A stretch of 64,000 nucleotides of DNA, taken from NCBI GenBank assembly GCA_963931865.1, contig OZ007508.1, forward strand, positions 10,910,781 through 10,974,780, in the 5' to 3' direction. The notes beneath the pieces were generated by a model. It was not told where the DNA came from and searched no databases. It saw only the letters and a list, made by a program, of their open reading frames with translations. The translations under genes were made by a program, and so were the position numbers. This stretch comes from Axinella damicornis. Lineage: Eukaryota > Porifera > Demospongiae > Axinellida > Axinellidae. Positions 8,701-60,400 of the stretch are shown in pieces. Positions within the stretch are counted from its first letter, which is position 1. Each line of letters opens with the position of its first letter.

Positions 8701-11700
8701 GTAGACAATACACCAATACTACCCAGACTACTGTCCACGGAGCTAATAGTTAATAATAGCGGCGATTCCCTCCGTGTGTAGGTCGTCTCGCGCCTTGTTT
8801 CAGAGTGTTGTGCACATAGCTATTATCAAGCTACACAGACGTGATGAGGTAGCTACGGCTGCATGCTTCTATCAAACTGCAAGGTATAGTCACCTGGCCT
8901 CGTTCGGAGCTTCCCGCCCTCGTTTGGAGCTTCCCGCCCCTACAGTGAAAGCTTGAAAGCTCGGAACTGCTGCACGCTGACCGCGGACACAAACGATCCC
9001 ATCTATGAGCTAACTAGCATCGCACACACAGCTTGTAGCTGTACAGGATGCGCATGTGCGTTACTGCTACTCCATTCCATTCCGTTTCGTTTCGTTTCGT
9101 TTCGTTTCACGTTCCATAGATTCGGGTATGCCCTCCTGGTAGTACACAAAACTACTTGTTCAAAATTCTTCCCAAGCACGTATAGGGCCTTAGGGGATCC
9201 CGGGAAGCCATGGTATTATCATGAATAATGTTAACCTCAAACCACTAATTCATTCAACAATATGCTGAGTAAGACAATGGACTTGCAATCTACAATACTC
9301 ACTTGTGAGTTCAAAGTTCAAAGTTGTTCTCTACACATGCACACAAATGAAGAAAATGGCATCGCAGATGAAGCCATAGTCATTGAGTGGGCGGTTTCAA
9401 GTGCCTCGTGAGACTTTTAAAAGCAATGGGGTCGTGCACAGCTCAGCTGCTGTTTTGTGTAAACACCGTTATGAGGGAGTCAGCCAAATTTGAACTAGCC
9501 CAGCAAAGAAGAAGAAATATTTAAACCGATTTGGCGGCTTGCCGACTTTCTGGTGCGGTACTGTTTACCTCATTTTTGTAGCAGCATACTTGATACCTCA
9601 TTTTTGTAGCAGCATACTTGATAGCATTCACTCCGCACTTAGTACACAATTGAGTTCAAAGTTCAAAGTTGTTCTCTATGCATGCACACAAATGAAGAAA
9701 ATGGCGTTGCAGATGAAGCCATAGTTATTGAGCGAATTCTATTAGTTTAGATCCTTCAACGACCGGTCCCTTCGACCAAAAATTATACGAGTGTATTACT
9801 GTAAACTAAATAAATAGCTAGCAGTTTTTGTTTGCACAAATGTCTTCATCAATCAATGCAACATTTAGATCCCTAGGGATCTTCATCAGGCAACAGGGAA
9901 TACAAGTACAAATCGCTTAAATACAGATATAGCAGATGTCTGCTAGATCTGTATTTAAGCGAGCCACTTGTGACTGTTTGTACTTGTATTGCTATTGCCT
10001 GATGAAGATCCCTCGGGATGGAAACGTTGCATTGATTGATGAAGAAGTTTGTGCAAACAAGAACTGCTAGCTATGTATTTAGTTTACAGTACTACATAGT
10101 TATTGAGTGGGTGGTCACAAGCGCCTCTCATGAGACTTCGAAAAGCGATGGGGTCGTGCACAGCTCAGTGTAAAATGCTGCTGTTTTGTGTAAACACGCA
10201 TGAGCACATGGGCTGTAATAGAAATGTCGTCATAGTAGTATTGTAGCCTCTTGATTACAGTAATGTCAATGCCATCACCCATAGTCAACAAACTTTATCT
10301 GACTGTGTTACGAGGGGCAACCACACTCCTGGTAGCCGCGTTGCAAGCGCTGGTCACACAAGCTAGGCATTGCAGTTCATTCCAATTAACGCACATGTCA
10401 CGTGAGGACCATGCTTGGCCGATCGAGTCGGCAATGGCGTCCAAAGGGAAGACAAGAACTTATTACAGAGCTCACAACTTCGCCAGCATACTGAGTTTCT
10501 GCATGTGAGCATCAGTGAATGACGATGTACATGTAGTCAGAATCTTTGCAGGCCATTGCTACATACATGTTACACTCCTGGTAGGGGAAAAATTGTGCCG
10601 CGTAAATAATTAATCCAATATAATATATATAATGTTTGAGTACTTAGGCTTGGCCTACAGAAATTCTGACTACACAGCTGTGATCGCTATCATGCCCTGA
10701 CCTGAATGTAAAAAGTTGGTGTTGAAACTCACCTTGGTGGTGGAGATATGAGCGCTTTTGTCTCGCCGTGGCCGCCATTGCTCGAGCGCTCTCTCCGACT
10801 TCCGGTGGCAGTACCGTTCTTAGGAAAGGCACACGAAGATTCTGACCACACAGCCATGATCGCTGGCGTTCACTGACGCTTATACACCGAAACTCACCGT
10901 GCTGGCTAAGTTGTGAGTGCTGTAATAATGTCTTGTCTTCCTTTTGCTCGCCATTGCTCGCGATCGACTTGAGCGTGGTTGCCACGTGGCGTGTGCGTTA
11001 ATTGGAACGAATTGCAATAGCACGCTTGCGCTACGGCGAGTCGCAACCGGGGTTGCAACGCAGCTACCAGGAGTGCGGTTGCCCCTCGTATAATATAAAT
11101 AATATTACACTCCTGGTAGGGGAAAAATTGTGCCGCGTAATCGAAACTAAATAATTAATTAAATAATCAAACCTCATAGCTCGCAGGAAAGGCCTACAAA
11201 GATTCTGACTACACCGTCGTGATCGCTATCATGCAGTTAGACAAATGCATAATAATTGTGCTGAAACTCACCTTGGTGGTGGAGATACAAGCGCTTTTGT
11301 CGTGCCGTCGGCCGCCATTGCTCGATCGTCCTCTTCAACGTTGGTTGCCAGTACAGTCTTACGAAGGCCCCACAAAGATTCTGACCACACAGCCGTAATC
11401 ACTGTCGTTCACTGACGCTTACACGCCAAAACTCACCGTGCTGGCAAAGTTGTAAGTGCTGTAATAACTTCGTGTCTTCCTTTGGCCGCCATTGATAGCG
11501 ATCGACTGCGCGTGGTTGCCACGTGGCATATGCGTTAATTGGAACCAGCTGCGCTACTCAGCTTGCACTACGGCGAGTCGCAGCCGGCATTGCAACGGCT
11601 ACCAGGAGTGCGGTTGCCCCTCGTTACACTCCTGGTAGGGGAAAAATTGTGCCGCGTAATATAAATAATATATATAATGTTCGAGTACTTAGGCTTGGCC

Positions 11701-14700
11701 TACAGAAATTCTGACTACACCACCGTGATCGCTATCATGCCCTGACCTGAATGTAAAACGTTGGTGGTGAAACTCACCTTGGTGGTGGAGATATGAGCTC
11801 TTTTGTCTCGCCGTGGCCGCCATTGCTCCTGCGCTCTCTTCGACTTCCGGTGGCAGTACCGAAAGGCACACGAAGATTCTGACCACACGGCCGTGATCGC
11901 TGTCGTTCACTGACGCTTACATGCCGAAACTCACCGTGCTGGCTAAGTTGTGAGTGCTGTAATAATGTCTTGTCTTCCTCTTGGTCGCCATTGCTCGCGA
12001 TCAACTGAGCGTGGTTGCCACGTGGCATGTGCGTTAATTGGAACGAAGTACGCGCTATGGCGAGTCGCAACCGGGTTGCAACGCGGGTACTTGAGAGCAT
12101 TCTACTGATCTTCCCTACATATAGCTATCATGGTACTCACGTCATGTGTGATAATTGGAACGAACTGTCACACTTAGCTTGTGCTACCACTTAACCGCCG
12201 CTACCAGGAGTGCGGTTGCCCCTCGTTACACTCCTGGTAGGGGAAAATTTGTGCCGCGTAAATAATCCAATATAAATAATATAAATAATGTTTGAGTACT
12301 TAGGATTGGCCTACAGAGATTCTGACTACACCGCCGTGATCGCTATCATGCCCTGACCTGAATGTAAAAAGTTGGTGTTGAAACTCACCTTGGTGGTGGA
12401 GATATGAGCGCTTTTGTCTCGCCGTGGCCGCCATTGCTCGAGCGCTCTCTTCGACTTCCGGTGACAGTACCATTCTTAGGAACGGCACACGAAGATTCTG
12501 ACCACACGGCCGTGATAGCTGTCGTTCACTGACGCTTGCATGCCATAACTCACCGTGCTGGCTAAGTTGTGAGTGCTGTAATAATGTCTTGTCTTCCTTT
12601 TGGTCGCCATTGCTCGCGATCGACTGAGCCACGTGGCATGTGCGTTAATTAGAACGAATTGCAATAATTAGTTTTGCTACGGCGAGGCAATCACGGGGTT
12701 GCAACGGCTACCAGGAGTGCGGTTGCCCCTCGTTACACTCCTGGTATAGGAAAAATTGTGCTGCGTAATATAATATAATATAATATATATAATGTTTGAG
12801 TACTTAGGCTTGGCCTACAGAAATTCTGCCAACACCGCCGTGATCGCTATCATGCCCTGACCTGAATGTAAAAAGTTGGTGCTGAAACTCACCTTGGTGG
12901 TGGAGATATGAGCTCTTTTGTCTCGCCGTGGTCGCCATTGCTCCAGCGCTCTCTTCGACTTCCGGTGGCAGTACCGTTCATAGGAAAGGCACACGAAGAT
13001 TCTGACCACACGGCCGTGATCGCTGTCGTTCACTGACGCTTACATGCCCAAACTCACCGTGCTGGCTAAGTTGTGAGTGCTGTAGTAATGTCTTGTCTTC
13101 CTTTTGGTCGCCATTGCTCGCGATCGTGGTTGCCACGTGGCATGTGCGTTAATTGGAACGAATTACAATACTTAGCTTGCGCTACGGCGAGTCGCAACCG
13201 GTTGCATCGCGGCTACCAGGAGTGCGGTTGCCCCTCGTATACAAAGCAGAAATAAACATATTAAATAATGTTTGAGTACTTAGGTTTGGCGTACAGAAAT
13301 TCAGACTACACCACCGTGATCACTATCATTCACTGACCTGAATGTAAAAAGTTGGTGTTGAAACTCACCTTGGTGGTGGAGATATGAGCCTGGGGCGTTT
13401 TTAGGAAAGGCACACGAAGATTCAGACCACACGGCCGTGATCGCTGTCGTTCACTGACGCCATAACTCACCGTGCTGGCAGTTGTGAGTTGCAATACCTA
13501 GCTTGCGCTACCAGCAAGTTGCAACCGGTTGCAGCGGCTGCTACCAGGAGTGCGGTTGCCCCTCGTATAATATGTTCGAGTACTTGGGATTGGCCTACAA
13601 AGATTCTGACTACACTGCCGTGATCGCTATCATGCCCTGACCTGAATGTAAAAAGTTGGTGTTGAAACTCAATTTGGTGGTCGAGATATGAGCGCTTTTG
13701 TCTCGCCGTGGCCACCATTGCTCGAGTGCTCTCTTCAACTTCCGGTGGCAGTACCGTTCTTAGGAAAGGCACACAAAGATTCTGACCACACGGCCGTGAT
13801 CGCTGTCGCTCACTGACGCTTGCATGCCAAAACTCACCGTGCTGGCGAAGTTGTGAGTGCTGTAATAATGTCTGGTCTTCCTTTTGGTCGCCATTGCTCG
13901 CGATCATGGTTGCCACGTGGCATGTGCGTTAATTGGAACGAATTACAATACTTAGCTTGCGGTATGGCGAGTCGCAACCGGGGTTGCATCGCGGCTACCA
14001 GGAGTGCGGTTGCCCCTTGTAAGTAGTCAAATATTAATTATTCATTTACATTATTTACGCGGCACAATTTTTCCCCTACCAGGAGTGTAAAGAGAAAGAA
14101 GCAGAGTTCAGACGACGATGATGACAGCTCTAGTGTGACCTGGAGTGCTCTGCAATTATGAGCACAGCAGACTCAGCAGGGTAACTTTGTGATGGTACAG
14201 AACCCCAGTGAAGGTATTACCACTGTTATCAGTGTTGACGCATTCACTACATCTTGTACCAGTACAGCAGCCACTTTCTGATATTGCTTCAAGCCCTCAT
14301 GAAAAGCCTGTTCAGCCCTGGTTGATTTCCATCAACACTAGTGGGAACCAGGAAGAGGTCATTTAACCCAGAGTGGTTCAAAACCTAGAATACTCAGAAT
14401 GAGATCGATGCTGCTTTTTGCTTCCCCTGCAGCGGTAGAGCTGAGGTTACCTTTACTGTATACCGAGGGGCAACCACACCAACCAGTTGCAACTTACCGG
14501 TAGCGGAAGCTAGGTATCGCAACTCATTCCAATTAACGCACATGCCACATGGCAAACCACGCCCAGTCGATACCAAGCAAAGGCGGCCAAATGGAAGACA
14601 AGAAATTGCTGCAGCACTCACAACTGCGCCAGCATGGTGAGTTTCGGCACGTAAGCGTCAGTGAACGACAGCGATCACGGCCGTGTGGTCAGAATTATAT

Positions 14701-23700: not shown

Positions 23701-26700
23701 CTCCTGCCTAACCCCACGGTTCTTACATACCGAGGCCCACAGTGGCCTTGTACATGTACCCAAGGCCTAGTCAACCCAGGCCCACAGTGGTCTTGCACCA
23801 ATGCTTACGGTGGCCTCAAGCTGAAATAACACCGACGTGCGAGGCCATTGTGTCGAAGTCTGTGGACGTCAATGCGCCACTTCTGCCTTTCCGAAGTGAA
23901 CGCGAAGCACGATACAAACTGTAAAAAACTGTAAGACCCCATAGCCAGATAACTTCGACCTGGCCGTATGTAGCGAACCATAGAAGTACTGGCCGTACAT
24001 ACACTGTAGCTAACCATACAAGTACTTACAGTACATACTTTACAGTACTTTCCAAGTTCCCCACAAAAACCTGGTGAGCCGCACATGCACGAACAGTGGA
24101 TATCCGGCGCTCTTCTCCCCAATTTCTGAGCGCCTGGGAACAAGGCTAGGTGGTCCTCATGTAGCCATTGTGGTCCTGGATACATGGCCACCGTGTGTGC
24201 ATTTAATGAGCTTCAATCAACAATGAACTTCTGAATCAGCCATCGGCATAGATGATGTTTCAGCAAAAGGCCTGAGTTTGGTTTCTAGGAGGCCACCATG
24301 GGTCTGAGTGGGAGGCCCCCGTGGTCTACAATGGCCTCCTACCCAGACCACGGGGGCCTCCCACTCAGACCCATGGTGGCCTCCTAGAAACCAAACTCAG
24401 GCCTTTTGCTGAAACATCATCTATGCCGATGGCTGATTCAGAAGTTCATTGTTGATTGAAGCTCATTAAATGCACACACGGTGGCCATGCATCCAGGACC
24501 ACAATGGCTACATGAGGACCACCTAGCCTTGTTCCCAGGCGCTCAGAAATTGGGGAGAAGAGCGCCGGATATCCACTGTTCGTGCATGTGCGGCTCACCA
24601 GGTTTTTGTGGGGAACTTGGAAAGTACTGTAAAGTACGTACTGTAAGTACTTGTATGGTTAGCTACAGTGTATGTACGGCCAGTACTTCTATGGTTCGCT
24701 ACATACGGCCAGGTCGAAGTTATCTGGCTATGGGGTCTTACAGTTTTTTACAGTTTGTATCGTGCTTCGCGTTCACTTCGGAAAGGCAGAAGTGGCACAT
24801 TGACGTCCACAGACTTCGACACAATGGCCTCGCACGTCGGTGTTATTTCAGCTTACGTATCTCAATGAATTATACGGAGAATGTACCGGAACTGCTCGCG
24901 CATGCGTGAACAGTGGATACCAGGCGCTTTTCTCCTCAATTACCGAGCGCCTGGGAACGAGGCTAAGGACCACCATGCGCCTTGGTAGGAGGCTACCATG
25001 TGCCTTGGTAGGAGGCCACGGTGAGCCTGGGTACATGGCCACCGTGGAACTGGGTAGGAGGCCACCGTGAGCCTGGGTACATGGCCTGCATAAGAGGCCA
25101 CTGTGAGCCTTTTTCTTTACAAACATTTTTCCCAGATGGGCGCCAGGATTGGCAGGAAGCAACTCATGTTTATTTGAAGCCTCTCCTGGGAAGGGAAACC
25201 AGAAAACTTGGAGAAAAACCCTTCCTACGTAGGTGCAATTGGTGGCACTCGAACCTGTGGCCTCTCACACCACAGTCGAGTGCTTTAACCACTAGGCCAC
25301 ACAGTCACACCCTAAAGCCTGGGTACGAGGCCACAGTGGTCTAAGTAAGGAATGTAATCGCTTATACAATTATGCTGACTGAGCACACACGGGAATTTTG
25401 CCAAGTGTCACCAGGCCCCTTTCCGTGTTCCGCACATGGGCCTGGGTATGAGGCTAGGAATGAGGCTCCAGAAAACAAGTTCTCAGGACTGTCTGGAATA
25501 GACCAGATCAATATACATGTACATCAATACATTAAGATTTTAACGTGTGTGTGTGTGTGTGTGTGCGTGCGTGTGTCTGTCTGTCTGTCTGTGCATGACG
25601 GAAGTGGGATGTTCGTGGGGCGGGACTAGACTATAGTGACGCACGACCGTCGTACTTCAATTTATCTACTGAACCTCGAACTCGGCGAAGAATGTTTGTG
25701 GGGCGGGACTAGACTATAGCGATGTGCGACCTTCGTACTTCAATTTAATTACTGAACCTCAAACTCCACGAAGAATGTTCGAGGGAGCAGGGGGATGCAT
25801 GCAATCGGGGAGCAGCAGTTGAAGAGGACGCAATCGGGGAGCAGCAGCCGAAGCGGACGCGATCGGGATCAGCAGCTGAAGCGGACACAATCGAGGAGCA
25901 GCAGCTAGAAGCGGACGCAAACGGGGAGCAGCAGCCGAAACAGACGCAATCGGGGAGCAGCAGCTCTGCACAGAGAGCTGTTCAGCGCCGGATTACTCAT
26001 GGTAGGCGAACGAGGGGGAAGTAGCTGAGCGAGAAAAGCTACTTGTACATGTAAAATGTAGTTTATCCGTCACAATAATAGATGTGGAGGTGCATGGTGA
26101 CTATTCCCATGATCTTATAATTAATATTTCTCATAATATATGCACATGTAAGCTGGTTGGCAATACTTGACTGTACGAAGATCGCATCAAGTAAAATGCA
26201 ACTTTGAGCACATCAAAAGTGGGGAATTGCCCAAAGTGCGCAAATTAAAAAGGTAAAGTCATGACAAGAGTATACTGTACAACATTGTTTGTGCATATAC
26301 AGACAATCATGCGTACCTGTAGAGTACTGTGCAGATCAAAATGACCCCCACCGTTTTCACATAGCTCTGCAGGATGAGAGGAAACATTATGAAAGGGAAA
26401 GACGTCTTCGTTTCTACGCTGGAAAGTCCCGCTGTGCTAAAATCGGTAGGCCCATGCTGTATTAAAATCGGTGGTAGGCCTCATATCAAAGTAGCACACG
26501 GGATATGTGCTCTGCTGAGCACCTCAAGTTTGCTAGTAACTTAATCTATACACATGTATATGCACCAGGCATGATTTCTGTAACACTACAGGCATCACCT
26601 CGACTTACTGAAACCAGCATGTGGAGATTCTCACATACTTTCATCTCAATGTGAGTACGTTAGCTAGTGGATGGCCTCAGTTCCCACTTCATGGAGTGAC

Positions 26701-39400: not shown

Positions 39401-42400
39401 ACGTGTTGTTTTGCCGTTGACTGACTGCCCTCCAGGTAATGGAAGTTGAACTGTGAGTAGCAGTCTTGTTCTATGCAATATATATATAGGTTAGACGATG
39501 AAGCCGAGGGGTCTACGGAATTTAGAGCCCCGTGGAAACTATAGACACCTGCGCACAAAGCGCAAGGGTGTCTATAGGTTTCCAAGGGGATCTAAATCCT
39601 GTAGGCCCCGAGGGTTTCATCGTTTAAGGTGTTTGTTTATACTATACAACTGGCAACCAATCAAACCACTGTCTGTATTAGCAACTGAAACAGTTAGCAA
39701 CCGTTCAGTCAGAAAGACTTTGCGCAGAGATGGGCGAGTTTTATTGCAACTGCTCTTGCCATCCGCTACTCTGCTTACTCGTGCGTTGTGTTTGGGACTA
39801 CGTAGCTGTGACTCCAAAGCGGAATCAGACTCTGGGATTGCAACAATCAAATCACTGTCTGTATTAGCAACTGAAACAGTTAGCAACCGTTCAGTCAGAA
39901 AGACTTTCCGCAGAGATGGGCGAGTTTTATTGCAACTGCTCTTGCCATCCGCTACTCTGCTTACTCATGCGTCGTGTTTGGGACTACGTAGCTGTGACTC
40001 CAAAGCGGAATCAGACTCTGGGATCGCACCAATCAAATCACTGTCTGTATTAGCAACTGAAACAGTTAGCAACCGTTCAGTCAGAAAGACTTTGTGCAGA
40101 GATGGGCGAGTTTTATTGCAACTGCTCTCACCATCCGCTACTCTGCTTACTCGTGCGTCGTGTTTGGGACTACGTAGCTGTGACTCCAAAGCGGAATCAG
40201 ACTCTGGGATCGCACCAATCAAATCACTGTCTGTATTAGCAACTGAAACAATTAGCAACTGAAACAGTTAGCTACCGTTCAGTCAGAAAGACTTTGTGCA
40301 GAGATGGGCGAGTTTTATTGCAACTGCTCTCACCATCCGCTACTCTGCGTACTTGTGCCGCCGACCAAGTCTGGCTACAGCTCTCGCACGCAAGACTGAA
40401 TCATGAACTGTACATTGTGACACTGTAACTACATTAATGAAAAATTTATTGGTGTATAAGTGATTACACTCCTGGTAGGGGGAAAATTGTGCCGCGTAAA
40501 TAATTAATAATTATAATGTTCGAGGGGCAACCGCACTCCTGGTAGCTGCGGTTAAGACGGTAGCACAAGCTAAGTGTGACAGTTCGTTCCAATTATCGCA
40601 CATCACGTGAGTACCATGATAGCTATATATAGGGAAGATCCATATTATTTAGAGTGCTCTCAAGCACCATTCATAAAGTAGCCGCGTTGCAACCTGCCGT
40701 AGCGCAAGCTAGCTAAGTATTGCAACTCGTTCCAATTAGCGCACATGCCACATGGCAACCAAGCTCAGTCGATCGAGCGCAAGCAATGGCGACCAAAAGA
40801 AATACAAGACATTATTACAGCACTCACAACTTAGCCAGCACGGTGAGTTTCAGCACGTAAGCGTCAGTGAACGACAGCGATCACGGCCGTGTGGTCAGAA
40901 TCTTCGTGTGCCTTTCCCGAGGGCTGTACTGCCACCGGAAGTTGAAGAGAGCGTTCGAGCAATGGTGGCCAACGGCGAGACAAAAGCGTTCATATCTCTA
41001 CCACCAAGGTGAGTTTCAGCACAATTATTTTGATTTTGTGGCACTGCATCATAGCGATCATGGCGGTGTGGTCAGAATCTTTGTAGGCCATTCTGAAATA
41101 GTCAAACGTTTATTATTATCGAGGGGCAACCGCACTCCTGGTAGGCGTTGCAACCCCGATTGTGACTCGCTGTAGCGCAACTGGTACTGTGTGGTCATAA
41201 TCTTTGTGGCAACGAAAGTTGAAGAGCGCTCGAGCAATGGCGGCTGAAGGGAAGACAAAAGCACCCACAACTCCACGATGAATTTCAGCAACAAAATTGT
41301 ACGGTTGGGTCACTGCATGATAGTGATCATGACAATTTAGTCAGAACCTTTGTAGGTCCTTCCTGCGGGCTGGGAGGTTATTTATTTGTAGCGATCACGA
41401 TGGTGTAGTCAGAATCTCTGTAGACCTTTCCTGCGTACTGTGAGGTTTGATTATTTAATTAATTAGATTATTTAGGCGGCACAATTTTTCCCCTACCAGG
41501 AGTGAAACGAGGGGCAACCGCACTCCTGGTAGCCGTTGCAACGCCGGCTGCGACTCGCCGTAGCGAAAGCTAAGTATCGCAGTTAGTTCCAATTAACGCA
41601 CATGCCACGTGGAAACCACGCTCTGTCAATTGCTAGCAATATTAATGGCAGCCGAAGGGAAGACACGAAGTTATTACAGCACTTACAACTTTGCCAGCAC
41701 GGTGAGTTTTGGCATGTAAGCGTCAGTGAACGACAGCAATCACGGCCATGTGGTCAAAATCTTTGTGTGCCTTTGCTAAGAACGGTACTGCCACCGGAAG
41801 TCGGAGAGAGCGCACGAGCAATGGCGGCCACGGCGAGACAAAAGCGCTTGTATCTCCACCACCAAGGTGAGTTTCAGAACCAAAATTGTACGCTTGGGTC
41901 ACTGCATGATAGTGATCACGGCGGTGTAGTCAGAATCTTTGTAGGCCATTCCTAAGGTAGTCAAAGGTTAATTATTTATTTAGATTGCATTACATTACGC
42001 GGCACAATTTTTCCTCTACCAGGAGTGTAACGAGGGGCAACCACACTCCTGATAGCCGTTGCAACGCCGGCTGCGACTCGCCGTAGCGAAAGCTAAGTAT
42101 CGCAGTTATTCCCAATTAACGCACATGCCACGTGGCAACCACGCTCAGTTGATCGCTAGCAATGGCGACCAAAGGGAGGACACGAAATTATAACTGCACT
42201 TACAACTTTGCCAGCACGGTGAGTTATGGCATGTAAGCGTCAGTGAACAAGCAGCGATTACGGCTGTGTGGTCAGAATCTTTGTGGGCCCTTCGTATGAC
42301 TGTACTGGCAACCAACGTCAAAGACAACGATTGAGCAATGACGGCAACTCCGCGGTTGCCTTGCAGTAGCGCAAGCTAATTATTGCAATCCGTTCCAATT

Positions 42401-45400
42401 AACGCACATGCCACGTGGCAACAACGCTCAGTCGAATGCTAGCAATGGCGACCAAAGGGAAGACACGAAATTATAACAGCACTTACAACCTTGCCAGCAC
42501 GGTGAGTTTCGGTATGTAACCGTCAGTGAACAACAGCGATTACGGCTGTGTGGTCAGAATCTTTGTGGGCCCTTCGTATGACTGTACTGGCAACCAACGT
42601 CGAAGAGAACGATCGAGCAATGGCGGCCGACGGCACGACAAAAGCGATTGTATTTCCATCACCAATGTGAGTTTCGCCACAATTATTGTGTGGTTGTGTC
42701 ACTGCATGATATCGATCACGATGGTGTAGTCAGAATCTCTGTAGACCTTTCCTGCGTGCTTTGAGGTTTGATTATTTAATTATTTAGATTATTTACGCGG
42801 CACAATTTTTCCACTACCAGGAGTGTAACGAGGGGCAACCGCACTCCTGGCAACCACGTTGCAACTGGTTGCAATTCGCTGGACGCGCTCATTCCAATTA
42901 ATGCACATGTCACGTGAGGACCGTGCTCAGTCGTCGATCGCGATGTCGAGTCAGCAATGGCGTCCAACAGTAAGACAAGAGCTTATTACAGTGCTAACAA
43001 CTTCGCCAGCACGGTGAGTTTTGGCATGTAAGCGTCAGTGAACGATAGCGATCACGGCTGTGTGGTCAGAATCTTTGTGGGGCCTTCATAAGACTGTACT
43101 GGCAACCAACGTCCAAGAGAGCGATCGAGCAATGGCGGCCGACGGCATGACAAAAGCGCTTGTATCTCTGCCACCAAGGTGAGTTTCAGCACAATTATTT
43201 TGATTTTGTGTCACCGCATCATAGTGATCACGACGGTGTAGTCAGAATCTTTGTAAGCCATTCCGAAGTAGTCTAACGTTTATTACCGTAGTCTCTCGAA
43301 AATACGCCCATGGGCGATGAATTTAGAATCTGCTCAAAGAGGGGGATGGGCGTATTTTCGAGGACCCCTCTCCCGAAAATAGGCCCACCCTTGACTCGAA
43401 AGTAGGCCCACCCAATTCGAAAGTAGGCCCACCCAAGTACATGCGTATACGAGTGCAATACTGCAACAGTCACTCTAGCAAGGCTTAACTACTACTATAG
43501 TCCTGGAGTTTCTTGGTGAGCAGGAACAATCTCTTCGTGTGAGTAGCTACAGGAACAGCAAACAAGACACAGCAGGACTGCTTGAATGACGTAGAGTGCG
43601 CAGACTATCTTCGGGACTTGCCGATTGCTGCTGCTTCCTAGATTGCACACGCGAAGACACAAACATGCAATGCACAGATGCAATGCACAGCACGTGCACG
43701 GTCTCATGTCATGCATTCAGTACACAGCTGATTATGCAATGGCATGCAACATAATGAAATTCATTGCAAATAGTACCGATAGCCAGCCTTCATTTCTTAG
43801 TCCAACCTCTTTGACAGTGCTTCTTCCGGAGCTATTCAAGTGCTTTCCTGTTTGAGCTAATAGGGTGGGCGTACTTTCGAGTAATGAATGACCCTTTGCA
43901 ACAACTTGTTGCGAAAAAGGGGGGTGGGCGTATTTTCGAGGGTGGGCGTATTTTCGAGAGACTACGGTATTTAGATTAGAATAGATTACATTACGCGGCA
44001 CAATTTTTCCCCTACCAGGAGTGTAATGAGTACTTAGGATTGGCCTGCATAGATTCTGACTACACAGTTCAATTGCAAGATCTTGAAAACCTCTGTGCCC
44101 ACAAGGTGAGAGTACTACTCAGTGGTACATCTGGTCGGGCAACTCACTGTTCAGAATGTTGCCTCAGGTCTTCCTCTCACCTTGTGGGTACTCTGATTGC
44201 AGCCACCAACTAGTACTCACAGCTAGCCTTGGCCCCAGGTTGCTATCTTCCTGCTTGACCCAATCAACACACGTGTGTGACTGCTTACGATAATCAAAAC
44301 AAGCAACACCAGTGTCCGAATTATTTCAGCCACTAACTGGCGAAGTGCACTATTTGAGGCTTCCTGTCTGTAATTCCTAGTTAAAACGAGAAGAGCAACT
44401 ACCACTTGTTGTAGCAAACCTCTCCACTGCCGTATCCCACTATGTACATGTAGGGTCATCTTGGCCGCAACGGTACACATGTACCCAGGTTTCTGGAGTC
44501 CTTGCAATTTTCAGGTGAATGCAAACACCGGAAGTCACATGAATGCGTGAGTTCTGAATGCTCGCGTCAGCAATGAGGACTTACGCCGGGTCCTACAGTG
44601 GCATTTTGTACACCAATCAGTGGTGTAGATCCAGAAAGCTGACTAAGAAGTAGACATTGGGGACTTTGTGATCGAATCACTTGCTAACTTCCTGCGGTGT
44701 AACATTAGACTTGCATAGTCATGATCATAAACGGAGTATGTCACGGACATTGCAACTGAGTCTAGATCCTAGAGGGCTACTGTGCGTAGCTTGCATGCAT
44801 CATGACAACTGTTGTCGCGTGACTTCCGCGCTACAAATTCAGTTGCAAGATATTGAAAACCTCTGTGCCCTCATTTATATGTGCCAACTTCCTAATGCAT
44901 TTGTTTTCATTGCTGCTGCTACTGGTGATTAATGGTTGTTGCTCCCCTGTAGATTACTGTCAGAACCCCAATAAGTACAAAACCACGATGTTCATCTGCA
45001 GAATTCAACAGTGGCCACTAGACTCTCCTTTTCCAAATGGGTACGTGTCTACTATGACTTACACACTCAGGGTATAAAATACTGTGTGTCCTCTTATTGG
45101 GGCGAGCCTGAGCGAGCCCCACACTAGCGTGACTTCATTGCGCTGTGTGTGTGTATGCTTGCTTGCTTGCGTGGATCTTGCAATTACTGTAAATTTTAAA
45201 TCAGCGAATTTCACTTGCACGTGCACAATAATTCAACGACCTCTAGCTAGCTACACACCTCCTCAATGCAAGGAATCGTGAACCGTCTAGCTACCTGTTC
45301 GACGAACAATGGCGACAACAAAGACGGAGAGACCATTCGTGGACATTGGCTAGAGCACCACATTCTGCCTCCTCGGTGGTGACACTCGGACAAAGACGGT

Positions 45401-51400: not shown

Positions 51401-54400
51401 CCCACTAGTTGTTCACTAGCCCAAGTCATGAATATTCACTGGAGGGTCAAACCCAGATAGAATGATGCACTATGCTATGCAAGTGAGCTGTTCAGTATCA
51501 CCACTATATGATTGGCTCACCACATACGTACGTGGTGACTCTAGAGGTACATGTATATCCATGCACTCCATGCGTTATTTTGTTTATGCCTTTACGAGAC
51601 CACACTCCTGGTAGCCGCGTTGCTACCGGTTGCAACTCGCTGGACCCGCAAGCTAGGTATTGCAGCTCATTCCAATTAACGCGCATGTCACGTGAGGACC
51701 ATGCTCGGTCGATCGATTGATATCGAGTCAGCAATGGCGTCCAAAAGTTACACTCCTGGTAGGGGAAATATTGTGCCGCGTAATTACACTCCTGGTAGGG
51801 GAAAAATTGTGCCGCGTAAATAATCTATTACACTCCTGGTATAGGAAAAATTGTGCCGCGTAAATAATCTAAATAATAAACGTTTGACTACTTCGGAATG
51901 GCCTACAAAGATTCTGACTACACCGTCGTGATCGCTATGATGCAGTGACACAACCACATAATAATTGTGCTGAAACTCACCTTGGTGGTGGAGATACAAG
52001 CGCTTTGTTGTGCCGTTGGCCGCCATTGCTTGATCGCTCTCTTAGACGCTGGTTGCCAGTACAGGATTACGAAGGCCCCACAAAGCTTCTGACCACACAG
52101 CCGTGATCGCTGTCGTTCACTGACGCTTACATGCCAAAACTCACCGCGCTGGCGAAGTTGTTAGCACTCTAATAAGCACTTGTCTTACTTTTGGACGCCA
52201 TTGCTGACTCGACATCTCGATCGACGACTGTACTGATCGACTGAGCATGGTCCTCACGTGACATGTGCGTTAATTGGAATGAGCTGCGTTGTGCGTCCAG
52301 CGAGTTGCAACCGGTTGCAACGCGGCTACCAGGAGTGCGGTTGCCCCTCGAATAATGTAAATAATAAACGTTTGACTACTTCGGAATGGCCTACAAAGAT
52401 CCTGACTACACCACCGTGATCGCTGTGATGCAGTGACACAACCACATAATAACTGTGCTGAAACTCACCTTCGTGGTGGAGATACAAGCGCTTTTGTCTC
52501 GCCGTGGCCGCCATTGCTCGAGCGCTCTCTCCGACTTCCGGTGGCAGTACCGGTCTTAGGAAAGGCACACAAAGATTCTGACGACACGGCCGTGATCGCT
52601 GTCGTTCACTGACGCTTACATGCCAAAACTCACCGTGCTGGCGAAGTTGTGAGCGCTGTAACAGTTTCTTGTCTTCTCCTTGGGCCGCTATTGCTGACTC
52701 AGCTCAATCGATCGACCGACCGAGCGCGAGCATAGTCCTCACGTGGCATGTGCATTCATTGGAATGAGTTGCAATACCCGACTTGCGCTACCGTCGAGTT
52801 GCAACCGGTTGCAACGCGGCTACCAGGAGTGCGGTTGCGTAGGTTTATATAATCCAACATAATATAAATAATGTTTGAGTACTTAGGGCTTGGCCTACAG
52901 AAATTCTGACTACACCGCCGTGATCGCTATCATGCCCTGACCTGAATGTAAAAAGTTGGTGTTGAAACTCACCTTGGTGGTGGGGATATGAGCGCTTTTG
53001 TCTCGCCGTTGGCCGCCATTGCTCAGTTCTTAGGAAAGGCACACGAAGATTATGACCACACAGCCGTGATCGCTGTCGTTCACTGACGCTTATATGCCGA
53101 AACTCACCGTGCTGGCTAAGTTGTGAGTGCTGTAATAATGTCTTGTCTTCCAGTTGGTCGACATTGCTCACGATCGACTGAGCGTGGTTGCCACGTGGCG
53201 TGTGCGTTAATTGGAATACTTAGCGAAATGAGCTTGCGCTACGGCGAGTCGCAATTGGGTTGCATCGCGGCTACCAGGAGTGCGGTTGCCCCTCGATAAT
53301 CTAACCTAAATAATGTAAATAAATAACGTTTGACTACTTAGCAATGGCCTGCAAAGATTCTGACTACACCGTCGTGATCGCTATCATGCACTGTCCTCAC
53401 CGTACAATTTTGGTGCTGAAACTCATCTTGGTGGTGGAGATACAAGCGCTTTTGTAGTGCCGTCGGCCGCCATCGCTCGATCGCTCTCTTCGAAGTTCGT
53501 CGCCAGTACAGCTCTTACGAAGGCCCCACAAAGATTCTGGCCACACAGGTGTGATCGCTGTCGTTCACTGACGTCTACATGCCGAAACTCACCGTGCTGG
53601 CTAAGTTGTGCGTGCTGTAATAATGTCTTGTTTTCCTTTTGGTTGCCATTGCTCGCGATCGACTGAGCGTGGTTGCCACGTGGCCTGTGCGTTTATTGGA
53701 ACGAATTGCAATACTTAGCTTCGCTATGGCGAGTCGCAACCGCGTACCGGGGTTGCAACGCGGCTACCAGGAGTGCAGTTGCCCCTCGTAAGACAAGAAC
53801 TTATTACACTGCTAACAACCTCGCCAGCACACTGAGTTTTTGGCATGTAAGTGTCAGTGAACGATAGCGATCACGTCTGTTTGGTCAGAATCTTTGTGGG
53901 GCCTTCGTATTGCTGTACTGGCAATCAACGTCGAAGAGAGCAATTGAGCAATGGTGGCCGACGACACGACAAAAGCGCTTGTATCTCCACCACGAAGGTG
54001 AGTTTCAGCAAAATTACTTTGTGGTTGTGTCACTGCATCATGGCGATCACGGCGGTGCAGTCAGAGTCTTTGTAGGCCATTCCGAAGTAGTCAAACATTT
54101 ATTATTTATTACACTCCTGGTAAGGGAAAAATTGTGCCGCGTAATATAATTAATATAATCCAATATAATATATATAATGTTTGAGTACTTACGATTGGCC
54201 TACAGAGATTCTGACTACACCGCCGTGATCGCTATCATGCCCTGACCTGAACGTAAAAAGTTGGTGCTGAAACTCACCTTGGTGGTGGAGATATGAGCGC
54301 TTTTGTCTCGCCGTTGGCCGCCATTGCTCGAGCGCTCTCTTCGACTTCCGGTGGCAGTACCGTTCTTAGGAAAGGCACACGAAGATTCTGACCACACGGC

Positions 54401-57400
54401 CGTGATCGCTGGTGTTCACTGACGCTTATACACCGAAACTCACCGTGCTGGCTAAGTTGTGAGTGCTGTAATAATGTCTTGTCTTCCTTTTGGTCGCCAT
54501 TGCTCGCGATCGACTTGAGCGTGGTTGCCACGTGGCGTGTGCGTTAATTGGAACAAATTGCAATACTTAGCATGCGCTACGGCGAGTCTTAACCGGGGTT
54601 GCAACGCGGCTACCAGGAGTGCGGTTGCCCCTCGTAATATAATATAATCCAGTATAATCCAATATGATATATATAATGTTTGAGTACTTAGGCTTGGCCT
54701 ACAGAAATTCTGCCTACACCGCCGTGATCGCTATCATGCCCTGACCTAAATGTAAAAAGTTGGTGCTGAAACTCTCCTTGGTGGTGGAGATATGAGCTCT
54801 TTTGTCTCGCCGTAGTCGCCATTGCTCCAGCGCTCTCTTCAACTTCCGGTGGCAGTACCGTTCTTAGGAAAGGCACACGAAGATTCTGACCACACGGCCG
54901 TGATTGTTGTCGTTCACTGACGCTTACATGCCCAAACTCACCGTGCTGGCTAAGTTGTGAGTGCTGTAGCAATGTCTTGTCTTCCTTTAGGTCGCCATTG
55001 CTCGCGATCATGTTTGCCACGTGGCATGTGCGTTAATTGGACCGAATTACAATACTTAGCTAACTTGCGCTACGGCGAGTCGCAACCGGTTGCATCGCGG
55101 CTACCAGGAGTGCGGTTGCCCCTCAATTATTTAATGATTTATGCGGCACAATTTTTCCCCTACCAGGAGTGTAATACATTGTTGCCATGAAAGCTGGTTC
55201 TGTGTGAATAGCCTGGGGGAACTCAATAGTTCATATATAAGTTAGACACTGGGACCAAGGGATCTACGCGATTTAGAAACCCGAGGGCCCTTGGCTGTAG
55301 CGAGAGTGCTACTAAGGTCCCGAGGGTTTCTAAATTGTGTAGATCCCATTGGTCTCAGTTTCTAACCGATTTAGAGTATAGCAACGGTAACTACGCTAGC
55401 GCTTCAGTTTTCAATAAAATAACCTATGAGTCAGAGGTCCTTTTCGACTAAATATCAAACTGGCTACGAGTACAAGGCAGGTACTAGCTCTGACATACCG
55501 TAGTTGCCGATTATTTCGCGTGCCAAAAATTTCGCGGTCTAGCCACTAAACGTGACACACAAATATTTCGCGGTGGGAAATTTTCGCTGATTACTTCCGC
55601 GAAAAAAAAATCCGCTCGTAATAACTTACTATTGACACATGCGATCGTGCTGATGGAACTGTGTACGCGTGGCTACCACGTCTACAGCGAAGCAACTGCC
55701 GGGGAAGAGCTACTGTGTGAGCGTGAGCCCAGGAACACGAAGGACAGTAACTGTTATGCCTAGCGCTAGCTGTGGAAATATATTTCGCGGGTTTAATATT
55801 CGCAGTCTTAGTTCATCCGCGAATACCGCGAAAATTTCCCCACCGCAAAATTAACTGCAACTACGGTAGAAAGTGACTTGTGCACATGAGCAGTCATATG
55901 GCTCCACCCCTCAATTTGGTTCCACCCACCAGTGCTGTCATTGACCGCTTATCCTTCAAGCTCTAGCTCATTTACTGATGTAGCCGTTAACAAGACCGTA
56001 CACGGAGAAGTACACAAACATGTGCACTGCCTATAATTGTAAAGCAGCTATATACGTACGTAGTTGCCATGGATTCAAAAGTTGTCAGTAAACAGGGGCT
56101 CAATAGAAAACCCCGTACATGGTTTTCTATTGAAGACGAGGTTTTCTGTGGGATTTAGATACGTACCTCGCAGTGAGTAATCTGATTTGTGGAATTGGTA
56201 CAACTAGTATATCAGTTGACCAGTAGCGACAATGAATCATTGTGCTCCTCCCCAGCTCACGAAACATCTCCAGTCACATTGTCACCTCCAATATCCTCAA
56301 GGCTTCGTGCCAGAACTAAGAAGTAGCTAACTAAGGCAGCTAAGAATCTTTAGCTGACCTTCAGCATTGTACAGTCAGTTTGCTCTCTTGTGTACCACCC
56401 TCACTACCATCACATACATGTACTCTGCTGTGAAGCAATAATAATAATAATAATAATAATAGTATACATACTCAAAGGATTTAGAAACCACGCTTTTGAA
56501 CATTGCAGCATTCACCCTCTCTACATGTATGTACTGCTCTCCCAGCACCCTGATGCGTAGCCTGGGGGAGGCAGGGGAGATTGAGCCAGAGACTGAGTCG
56601 TTTCTTCTTGAAAATGAGATAGACTCAGGAGACTTTCCCTCAGAGGCCCTCGACTGTCTGCCAAAGAGCCTTCCCTGGACTGTACCCAAGGTCTGGTAGC
56701 TACTCTTACTGTTGCTTTTTATGCATGTGTAGTAATATAATGAGCATGCTGTGTGCTGATGAAGTGCTTAGGTTGGTAGTGGGTTAGTGTTAGCCTCGTT
56801 CCCAGCCTCCCCAGGTTTTTTGTCGCATACGGATCCGTAAGGAGCCTGGGAAAGAGGCTAGGTTATAGAATATTACTGGTAGCATGAAGGTTTTCCTCTC
56901 TCCCATAACTTATTAACACCTGGGATGACAGACGCATCTTGTGGTATAGTAACGTCACAACCTCCGTAATTGCATATGGGAGGAGCCTGGGAACGAGGCT
57001 AGGTTAGTATAATACCGGTGTTTTCCTCTCTCCCAATACGTAACACCTGGGATGACAGACACATCTTGTGGTATAGTAGCATCACAACCTCCGTAATGGC
57101 AATATCTTGCTTGCCAGACTAGCTGTTTACCAATTGCATTTTTCCAGGAGGAGGAGAGGAAGAGGAGGGATTTTCGGAAGGAGTGTGTCTTCTCCATTGA
57201 CCCAGCAACTGCTAGGGTAAGTATTCATTTGTCTATCACTTGAATGATGGTACCCGGTAGTACGTATCTTACATGTGGTTACATGACAGCTATGTTCCCA
57301 GTAGGATCTTGATGATGCCCTCCATGTGAAGAAGCTGGATGAAAGTGAGCCAATAATAACGATTGCAAAAGCCCTAGATATAGATGAGCATGGTCCTCAC

Positions 57401-60400
57401 GTGACATGTGCGTTAATTGGAATGAGCTGAAACGCCGCGACCAGCGACTTGCAACGCAGCTACCAGGAGTGCAGTTGCCCCTCAAAAGTGAGCTGCAAAA
57501 GCCCTAGGTACATAGATGAGACCACATTCCAATGACTACATCAAGGCCAGGGAAGCACCCTAGTACAAACACTATGCTATTTCTATGGGTGGAGGAAATA
57601 CAAAGAAAAAAGCATTTTGCTGATACTAAGAGATAGCTTTCTACTTGAGAAATATATATTGAAGCTTTTACTTGGAACACACAGGTTGCACTTCTACTCT
57701 TAGGAAGTTCTCTAGCTTCCAGTTGCCTGTAGTCCCACAGCGGCCATGTACCATGCTCCCGTGGTGGGTTCCTACTCAGGCCCATCGTAGCCTGCTACCC
57801 ATGCCCATGTACCCAGGCTCACGGAGGCCACATACCCAGGCCCATTGTGGCCTCATGCCTCTTACCCAGTCCCTCGGTGGCCATGTACCCAGGCTGATGG
57901 TGGCCTCCTATCCAGCCCTGTGGACCTCGGTGAGAGGCCACTGTGGGCCTGGGTATGAGGCCACCGGGGGTCTGGGTATAAGGTCGCCGTGGACCTGGGT
58001 TTAGGCGGCATAGATGCAAGACCAACAAGGGCCTGGGTAGGAGGCCACCGTGGGCCTGCTCAGGTGGCCCATGGTGGCCTCTTATCCATGTCCACTGTGG
58101 CTTCATACACAGAACCACAGTGGCCTCATACCCAGGCCCACTGTGGCCTCATACCCATGCTCACGGTGACCTCTTATGCAGTTCGACGGTAACATCCTCC
58201 TACCCAGTTCCATGGTGGCTATCCACCCAAGATCACGTTGGCCTCCTCCCCAGGTGCATGATGGCTTTCCATTCAGGGGGTTGCAGTGGCAATACACATG
58301 TGTACATTAATGGATGAACTGCATGTACCCGGTACAAACTAGTGGATGCAATTAGGGTCCAGATACATGTCATTTTCCTAGCCTCGTTCCCGGGCTCCCT
58401 CTGTATTTATCATCGCCATGCACGCAAGGGGAGCCTTGGAATGAGGCTACATGCCACACAAACTGCAAACAAGTTTCCAACCAGGAATGCAGTTCATACT
58501 CCAAAGGAATGCTGGCTGAACTTGCACAATCCCTGTTTAGTAATAGCATTGCCACCAGTCCAGTCACCAGTTAGAAAACATGGCTCTGTTAAGAGCCAGA
58601 TATGGTGTACGTAGGAGGTATCATAGTGTTTGTAACTTGCAACGTCAGTAAGTTTGAATGTTATATTGTACCTGTCTCTGTTTCCCATAAGATGTATATG
58701 AAGTTGGTGTGCACATAGCAGATGTGAGCTACTTTGTTGAGGCTGGCACTAGCCTCGATACAGTAGCCCGTCAGAGGGCCACCAGTGTCTACCTGGTGCA
58801 GCGGGTAAGTTAAGATTGAATTGTTTTCCCTATATCCCTCCATGTGTATCTCTCTCCATTCTCTAGTTGAGTAACTACGTCCAAATGCAGAGCTCAGTTG
58901 CAACTATGCTGTGCATCTGAGCCCTCACCCTAATAATTGCATTACAAATTCCACCTTGAAGTAATTCTTCTGTTCTCTAGGTGATCCCCATGCTCCCCCG
59001 GTTGTTATGTGAACAGCTGTGTAGTCTGAATCCTGATGAGGTGGGCTACTTGTCTGTGTATGGTAATTATTGTACCTAAGTGGTGATGATTCAATCATGT
59101 TGGGGGCAAGCTGAGCAACCTCATGGGCAGACACTACTTAACCCTTTAACCACCGAATTCTTCCCACCAAGACAACACATTTTCATGCATTCAGCGCACA
59201 CCACTTTCGTAGGTACTCCTCTCCCACAGCATTCGCTCCTCAGCGGCCAAACTTGGTGGGGCCCGCACACATGGAGAGACCCCTCTGGCAATACCGTTAA
59301 TGATATTCATGACCCCCACAAGGCCAGCAATCGGAGGTCAAAGGTGGATGTCAGCCGGATTTTCGCCCAGCATTTCCCTAAACTTGGGCCAGATCTGACT
59401 GATGGCACACCTTACACCACCAATTTGCAGGTTTTCTTGAGGCCCTGGGTGGGGTCTATGAATATCATTAGAATCAAAAATTCTCGGGTCAATGAATCTC
59501 ATTAAAATCAAAAAACGCCCGCGACAGGCCGAAGGGGGTGCTGTCGCCCCCCCTTCGAAACCCCCCCGCTTGTACGTTTAGTGGGGGAGGCGCGCCGAAA
59601 TCTGACCAAATTTTTGAGTTCGTGCCTGAAAGTCATCCCTAGGCCCTCTGAAGACTTTTTGGTCTCTTTTTGGACTGGCGAGAAGCCCTACAAGTGCATA
59701 GGGTCTAAATGACGCCTATAGACGTCATTGGGGCTTAAAGGGTTAAGGTTACGATGTACAATTCGATAAACGTTTTTGCTGGTAACTTTGCCGCTTTATA
59801 TCTCAGGACCTATAACAGATATCAATCCGAAACAAGTTGCATTCCAACATTCCAACACCACATGAAAGAAGTATGCCTCAAGGCATTTGGACCTAGGCAA
59901 TTAGACTCACTGTTCAAGCGCTTTTGCGCCAAATTACTGAGAGGCAGACGGTAGCCCAACCCTCAAAAATTCTCCAGTACTAGTACACAGTACTTGCTAG
60001 GTCGTGACGAAGAGATATTCGGTGATCTGTGTATATTTTTAGCTATATGTACAAAAACTTACTGGTTCAACCAAGATGAGCATTCTGTAGGCATGCATAA
60101 CCTCTGTTTTATGCCCCAATTTCGTGCTTCGTGCCGCCCTGCGCAAAACATCAGGCTACATGTGCAGCAAGTCAAAATTCAAGAGAAACAATTTCCCTTT
60201 GTTACGAGGAGCAACCGCACTCCTGGTAGCCGCGTTGCAACCCTGGTTGCGACTCGCCGTAACGCAAGTGCAATTCGTTCCAATTAACGCACATGCCACG
60301 TGGCAACCATGCTCAGTCGATCGCGGGCAATGGCGTACTGCTTCCGCTATGAATAACATTATCTGGTTGTTTTATGTAAACAAACTGACAGCTGCCTCCT

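Follow-up and report, generated by a model that had tools for sequence, protein, structure and literature searches.

Gene fragments are commonly captured by Helitrons (PMC4778049), and the closest counterpart to the element described here is HelibatN3 of Myotis bats, a Helitron that took over the NUBPL promoter together with six codons and a splice donor and that trapped exons in cell culture (PMC4778049). Among the non-autonomous Helentrons, elements of the HINE/DINE-1 type combine short subterminal inverted repeats, located about 2-4 and 38-60 bp from the ends in mite HINE families, with internal repeats, a high copy number and a T-rich target with a preference for TT, and rolling-circle copying past the terminator is thought to yield head-to-tail copies (PMC4067079). 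In Helitron2 elements the terminal inverted repeats are asymmetric, 8-15 bp long and situated 0-2 bp (5') and 20-30 bp (3') from the ends; Helitron-1N1_CRe integrates after TTTT and before T/C, and no duplication results (PMC3627910). The Helentron-type Cg_HINE of the oyster spreads tandem repeats situated between two terminal modules, although tandem whole elements are also mentioned (PMC7492417), while the hydra gene of Drosophila has repeated first exons near Helentron-type elements (DINE-1), which flank many of them (PMC2374699).

Within the window, i.e. the whole 64,000-nt stretch of DNA analysed here, we describe a repeated 523-bp unit that acts in the manner of a non-autonomous rolling-circle transposon; the nearest known groups are Helentron/HINE and Helitron2. 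It resembles HelibatN3 in being non-autonomous and in holding a promoter-like region, an ATG and a donor, a design that could trap downstream exons. HelibatN3, however, is of the Helraiser type and contains one fragment captured from a named gene, whereas the unit has other termini, a doubled module and arrays, and splicing is proven for HelibatN3 while the donors of the unit are known from their sequence, together with a measured constraint between copying lineages. The original prediction, which regarded a mobile unit with two tandem mini first exons as a type not previously encountered, was thus too strong in view of HelibatN3; relative to this precedent, novelty lies in the doubled module, in the arrays and in the constraint measured between lineages. 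Among the literature matches listed (titles and abstract openings, with few subscription journals), none besides HelibatN3 concerned a doubled-module element or donor selection.

With HINE/DINE-1 elements the unit shares short subterminal inverted repeats, a high copy number, internal repeats and the T-rich target with its preference for TT, yet 13 and 3 bp separate its arms from the ends and, unlike theirs, its body holds promoter- and donor-like modules. The asymmetric inverted repeats are like those of Helitron2, and T or C follows the element in 39 of 40 cases, as for Helitron-1N1_CRe, but the positions of the arms differ from those in Helitron2, and no 5' hairpin has been demonstrated for the unit. 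Read in the opposite orientation, its 5' arm would fit Helitron2 but its target would not. Overall, short asymmetric arms and an insertion at TT, or between a T-rich stretch and T/C, without duplication agree with the Helentron/HINE-Helitron2 group, while the arm positions (expected at 0-4 and 20-60 bp) and the 3' stem-loop disagree, and because of this misfit we do not file the unit as a member of either family. In contrast to Cg_HINE, whole elements including their ends are repeated head to tail; for Cg_HINE, likewise, no autonomous partner was found. In comparison with hydra, where the exons belong to one gene, the exon-like module is here part of the element itself.

Structure and distribution of the unit

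The coordinates originally predicted for the array element correspond exactly to one full unit (Table 1). This unit belongs to the main array, which covers about 40.5-44.0 kb of the window on the plus strand, and partial arrays were also found at 17.5-18.4 and 19.8-20.3 kb. Within the arrays, units are oriented head to tail and joined either exactly or via short A/T stretches. The window holds 36 occurrences of GGTGAGTTT (0.58 expected) and 29 of AGCAATGGCG (0.14 expected). Directly upstream of the main array lies a 186-bp tandem repeat (39653-40358; 3.7 copies, 94% matches), partly inside a long open frame (39495-40262) with weak, sub-threshold Pfam matches, and adjoined by a foldback with a MITE-like inverted repeat at 39495-39630, recognized by eye.

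Table 1 Features of the unit and of related arrays (window positions unless a locus is given; internal changes are those assigned to internal branches of the unit tree).
Feature	Position	Strand	Remarks
Complete 523-bp unit inside head-to-tail array	41508..42030	+	from CGAGGGGCAACCG to CCAGGAGTGTAA
First unit of the array	40521..41119	+	extra diverged promoter-like segment (CCAAT, CACGTG, TATATATA) ahead of modules A and B
Single-module unit	41120..41507	+	lacks the CCAAT/ATG/donor part of A; its donor B is degraded (GATGAAT)
More units of the same array	42031..43285	+	42031-42348 (partial), 42360-42828, 42829-43285
3' terminus, inverted copy, left edge of array	40464..40499	-	
Outer 3' terminus of array	43991..44026	+	next base T
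Second array of units	10570..14017	-	adjoined by plus-strand pieces
Third array of units	51828..55124	mostly -	one plus-strand piece, 53790-54110
5' terminus CGAGGGGCAACCG with inverted arm CACTCCTGGTAG	41508..41532	+	arm 13 bp inside end
CCAAT box	41589..41593	+	segment CCAATTAAC: zero internal changes in the 171-unit set
CACGTG (E-box-like)	41606..41611	+	1 internal change across 6 sites
Module A, ATG (41645-41647) up to donor	41645..41701	+	57 nt, open in this copy
Module A donor motif ACG/GTGAGT	41699..41707	+	GT = 41702-41703
Module B, ATG (41821-41823) up to donor	41821..41866	+	46 nt, open in this copy
Module B donor motif AAG/GTGAGT	41864..41872	+	GT = 41867-41868
36-bp 3' terminus TTACGCGGCACAATTTTTCC..CTACCAGGAGTGTAA	41995..42030	+	inverted arm CTACCAGGAGTG, 3 bp inside end
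Head-to-tail unit junction	42016..42055	+	arms CTACCAGGAGTG and CACTCCTGATAG flank the 3'/5' joint and fold as hairpin
RepHel leader units	L074:1-3414 (C2:8226700-8230700), L012:7-857, L072:2183-3794, L009		

A search of the genome (226 Mb in 120 contigs), which its transposon types, introns and size mark as probably eukaryotic, located the 5' 25-mer at 5,686 places and a 35-mer of the 3' terminus at 3,468 places, both at ≤2 mismatches, compared with none for the reversed 5' and 3' patterns; an exact 22-mer of the 5' end had no match in genome_contigs or in viral_contigs. Solo copies were picked by the presence of both ends (n = 10), for which three of the loci taken by their 5' end (L041-L049), namely L041, L046 and L047, were excluded because they have no 3' end. 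All ten share the 5' terminus CGAGGGGCAACCGCACTCCTGGTAG and the 3' terminus CTACCAGGAGTGTAA, with single changes in some, as well as the 12-bp asymmetric inverted arms CACTCCTGGTAG and CTACCAGGAGTG, the 3' arm sometimes with single changes.

Of 40 bases following an outer 3' end, 31 were T, 8 were C and one was A, the filter for outer ends being rough, so that a few of these 3' ends are probably array-internal. Upstream of 34 outer 5' ends the sequence is T-rich, with A or T at position -1 in 31. Comparison of array L019 with the closer uninterrupted paralogue of its site revealed a clean insertion between T and T (...ACTTGTT/TATGT...) with neither duplication nor loss; a second uninterrupted paralogue gives the same picture, except that a 9-base gap adjoins the joint. 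The insertion site of L045 sits in a simple repeat. Matching 3-bp flanks in three of the ten solo copies (TTA, TTA, CTT) are probably chance matches in A/T-rich or simple repeats.

At the 3'-5' junction, where the 12-bp arms stand face to face, folding against shuffles gave z values of -1.97 for a 72-nt piece and -1.29 for an 81-nt piece, while the last 46 nt of the 41508-42030 copy, tested for a separate 3' stem-loop, gave no excess folding over shuffles (z 0.22). The unit had no match in Rfam, and a tRNA search found none.

Several other element classes were considered and rejected. A cut-and-paste transposon with the 36-mer as its terminal inverted repeat (TIR) is disfavoured, as the 36-mer mostly marks 3' ends in the loci examined, is often tandem and is absent from the 5' end of solo copies, although inverted 3' termini at the left edges of two arrays (window 40464 and L050 1442) run contrary to this. 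A TIR-bearing MITE disagrees with the asymmetric ends and the lack of a duplication at the one resolved empty site. For a retro-element, a 13-bp direct repeat was seen at a fragment in L047, but the ten solo copies show end matches of ≤3 bp. This fragment (L047:1488-1552) is a 5'-end segment of the element, about 39 bp long, flanked by TTCCTTCTGTTAT, as judged by eye, and is perhaps filler DNA at a staggered break.

The two modules of the unit are homologous

The predicted internal dimer was borne out: the alignment of modules A and B in the 145-unit consensus scored 130, compared with a mean of 38 (sd 5.8) and a maximum of 65 for 1000 dinucleotide shuffles of A. In the consensus of 171 units, 108 of 140 ungapped columns are identical (alignment length 163), and within the 41508-42030 copy itself the figures are 100 of 134 (alignment length 156). 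The modules are therefore homologous throughout, as had been claimed for the whole 145 bp, but gaps of 1 to 9 bases are needed to align them. Some details of the original prediction did not hold for this copy. Its module-A string GCAATGGCGACC is absent from 41508-42030, where module A reads GCAATATTAATGGCAGCC instead, and is found nearest at 40783 and 42159; GGTGAGTTTCGGCATG and ATCACGGCCGTGTGGTCAGAA are likewise missing, and the copy has GGTGAGTTTTGGCATG and ATCACGGCCATGTGGTCAAAA by eye. The quoted module-A strings belong to neighbouring units.

In the consensus, the ATGs of A and B start at positions 132 and 308 and the donor GTs at 189 and 355, and a CCAAT box and CACGTG precede module A only; a further diverged promoter-like stretch stands in front of some units (L048, L060 and window 40521). 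The tail of A, recognized by eye, is kept in two single-module units (L011 and window 41120), which we therefore regard as deletions of the dimer and not its ancestor.

Changes at ATGs and donors between copying lineages

Two sets of units were analysed, the first with 145 of 252 profile matches and a tree built from all columns, the second with 171 of 338 matches, each spanning 270 or more of the 325 body columns, including two newly taken arrays and with a tree built without the tested sites. Terminal branches represent changes after insertion and internal branches changes between copying lineages. By plain retention, GT is kept in 163/171 (A) and 158/171 (B) units, set against dinucleotide values of 0.89 (median) and 0.98 (90th percentile). 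ATG is kept in 156/163 (A) and 170/170 (B), and both ATGs thereby equal or exceed the trinucleotide 90th percentile (0.96; median 0.81). Donors and ATGs mutated as often as neighbouring bases had been named as the observation that would speak against the original prediction. By raw retention the GTs come close to this, and the constraint on the donors emerges only after old and new changes are separated.

Upon this separation, the 24 ATG and donor sites of the 171 units, CpG included, showed 2 internal and 80 terminal changes, compared with means of 53 and 105 for 120 random site sets matched in shape, which were treated alike and equally left out of the tree. The resulting internal-to-terminal ratio of 0.025 was reached by none of the random sets (mean 0.50, minimum 0.18). 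Without CpG sites, internal and terminal changes amounted to 2:70 at ATGs and donors and to 585:1164 elsewhere. The corresponding figures were 3:49 versus 474:876 for the not-C1 loci (p = 1.6e-6), 2:18 versus 243:413 for the C1 loci (p = 0.016) and 0:9 versus 101:172 for the two new arrays alone (23 units; p = 0.03), the Fisher p values serving as a guide only, as sites are not independent. ATGs and donors thus undergo near-ordinary change after insertion and almost none between copying lineages, which upholds the claim that each half of the unit carries an ATG and a consensus donor, both changing far less between lineages than other bases of the unit.

In the first set, non-CpG body sites averaged 3.25 changes per site on terminal and 1.60 on internal branches, compared with 2.67 and 0 for ATG A, 0 and 0 for ATG B, 2.4 and 0 for CCAAT, and 3.8 and 3.0 terminal with 0.22 internal changes for each of the two nine-site donors; GT B alone had 6.0 and 0.5. 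That the ATG of module B is unchanged even after insertion is not predicted by the constraint model. Tree-free counts pointed in the same direction but more weakly, with p from 4e-4 to 0.03 depending on the cut-off: a second allele at ≥5% was found at 0/22 ATG/donor sites versus 103/321 others (p = 4e-4), the same non-consensus base in ≥8 loci at 0/22 versus 89/321 (p = 0.0017), and, with weaker contrast, in ≥3 loci at 8/22 versus 207/321 (p = 0.011). An unguided 9-mer scan of the body found ≤2 internal changes only in TTCCAATTAACGCACA (the CCAAT stretch), the surroundings of both donors and AGCGTCAGT. The ATGs are cold as triplets only, with varying adjoining bases, and no ATG-containing 9-mer is among the coldest.

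Models for the conserved motifs

The CCAAT/E-box, ATG and donor motifs, a predicted promoter and predicted donors, are present in the unit and constrained. We consider it about an even call that the unit is a mobile promoter/ATG/splice-donor cassette on a rolling-circle-like non-autonomous element, internally doubled and arrayed. According to this model, a gene 5' end would have been captured from a host gene and then doubled inside the element, so that the body of the unit would represent two diverged tandem copies of an apparent gene 5' end. The unit would be copied by a rolling-circle process, with arrays arising when copying overruns the 3' end into the next round, and every copy would deliver a putative transcription start and a splice donor. 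The donor motif would be a functioning splice donor; most likely, donors and CCAAT would be kept because a transcript that engages U1 or splicing helps the element to be copied. More tentatively, and short of an even chance, the unit may be a self-propagating, doubled transcription-start/5'-splice-site cassette whose promoter box, ATGs and donors are kept by selection among copying lineages, and which has scattered thousands of first exons, many of them in arrays. If the donor is kept by such selection, engaging the splicing machinery is part of the success of the element, and a genome with thousands of copies would amount to a natural exon-trap experiment. The comparison of changes between lineages with those after insertion also offers a simple test for functional signals in non-coding transposons.

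The chief alternative to a functioning splice donor is that the copying machinery binds the motif. In this possible but rather unlikely explanation, the conserved motifs are recognized by the copying machinery or by a DNA-binding protein of the host, and GGTGAGTTT is merely donor-like. The ATG-containing CAATGGCGGC would then presumably be a YY1-like site rather than a start codon. Such binding would account for constraint without a conserved reading frame and for cold stretches around the donors of about 15 bp, wider than a donor, but each of these stretches has at its centre a donor consensus that follows an ATG.

Single-module copies bear on this question from both sides. Thirty module-like pieces outside the 171-unit set were assessed separately, including a donorless subfamily. 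All 16 B-type single-module copies without an upstream CCAAT have a damaged donor (13 AAG/ATGAAT, one AAG/GTGAAT, one AAG/ATGGAT and one partly missing), and all 16 retain the ATG; those seen all sit in arrays. By their shared changes, these copies appear to descend from one event. Of three CCAAT-bearing single-module copies, two have an intact donor and one a damaged one. The persistence of the ATG in the donor-damaged copies favours a binding site, while the loss of the donor, but not of the ATG, where the promoter is lost argues against it. For the splice-donor cassette, the subfamily can be read either as donor loss following promoter loss or as proof that the donor is dispensable, and that promoterless, donorless copies multiplied, at least as passengers of arrays, counts against a donor needed for copying.

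The same multiplication would suit ordinary captured, functionless DNA, in which a gene 5' end was acquired once and the motifs are shared by ancestry and chance. The commonness of gene fragment capture in Helitrons (PMC4778049) and the unremarkable plain retention of GT also fit this explanation, but sites that mutate near-normally after insertion and not between lineages, a pattern matched by 0/120 random sets, speak against it, and we regard it as unlikely.

RepHel genes and a candidate autonomous partner

The unit could alternatively be the promoter and first exon of the transposase gene of an autonomous partner, with copies budding repeatedly from intact autonomous elements. A genome search with Helitron_like_N indeed gave 53 matches, 51 of them above the Pfam cut-off and some representing two pieces of one element, and the 3' terminus of the unit sits in the repeated leader of a young RepHel family. 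However, the young RepHel gene has its own ATG after this tandemly repeated leader, and no match to the unit modules with E below 0.5 was found in the 4.0 kb upstream. This lends no support to the unit as first exon of the young RepHel family. In the second RepHel family (L071, with a 2239-aa frame), the 12-bp arms were matched only loosely, at 3 edits, and the 5' end of the unit was not found in 988 bp upstream or 2194 bp downstream. Searching twelve RepHel loci (L029-L040, covering 1.5 kb on each side of the Rep domain) as well as L071 yielded no match to the unit at E < 0.27. With no partner bearing the ends of the unit in the parts read of these two RepHel families, a transposase first exon appears improbable.

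The leader of the young RepHel gene is itself a tandem array of ~0.8-kb units with hairpin-like ends (TTGGGGCGAGCC...GCCCCA, ...CGTCTAGT). Pieces of this leader unit lie inside arrays of the element studied here, the 3' terminus of which occurs in the leader, and the two mobile families apparently mingle in common arrays.

Reading frame and further observations

The open frame of the original prediction was found from ATG to GT in most units, but stops occur in 14/157 A and 4/170 B modules, counting only modules with an initial ATG. That the unit holds two genuine coding mini first exons, retained for the sake of their peptides, is very improbable: the open frames and a length of A that is a multiple of 3 in 99/130 ATG-bearing units of the 145-unit set would be in keeping with coding, but B measures 46 nt in 61/145 units and 47 nt in 76/145, so that the downstream frame differs, and since exon length drifts and the greatest variability is not at third codon positions, it is not the peptides that are maintained.

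Elsewhere in the window, an open frame on the minus strand (6928-7386) is weakly similar to the helix-turn-helix of Tc3-type transposases, below Pfam cut-offs, and several 23-bp minisatellites, alike by eye, occur at the distant places 22840-25079 and 57918-58265.
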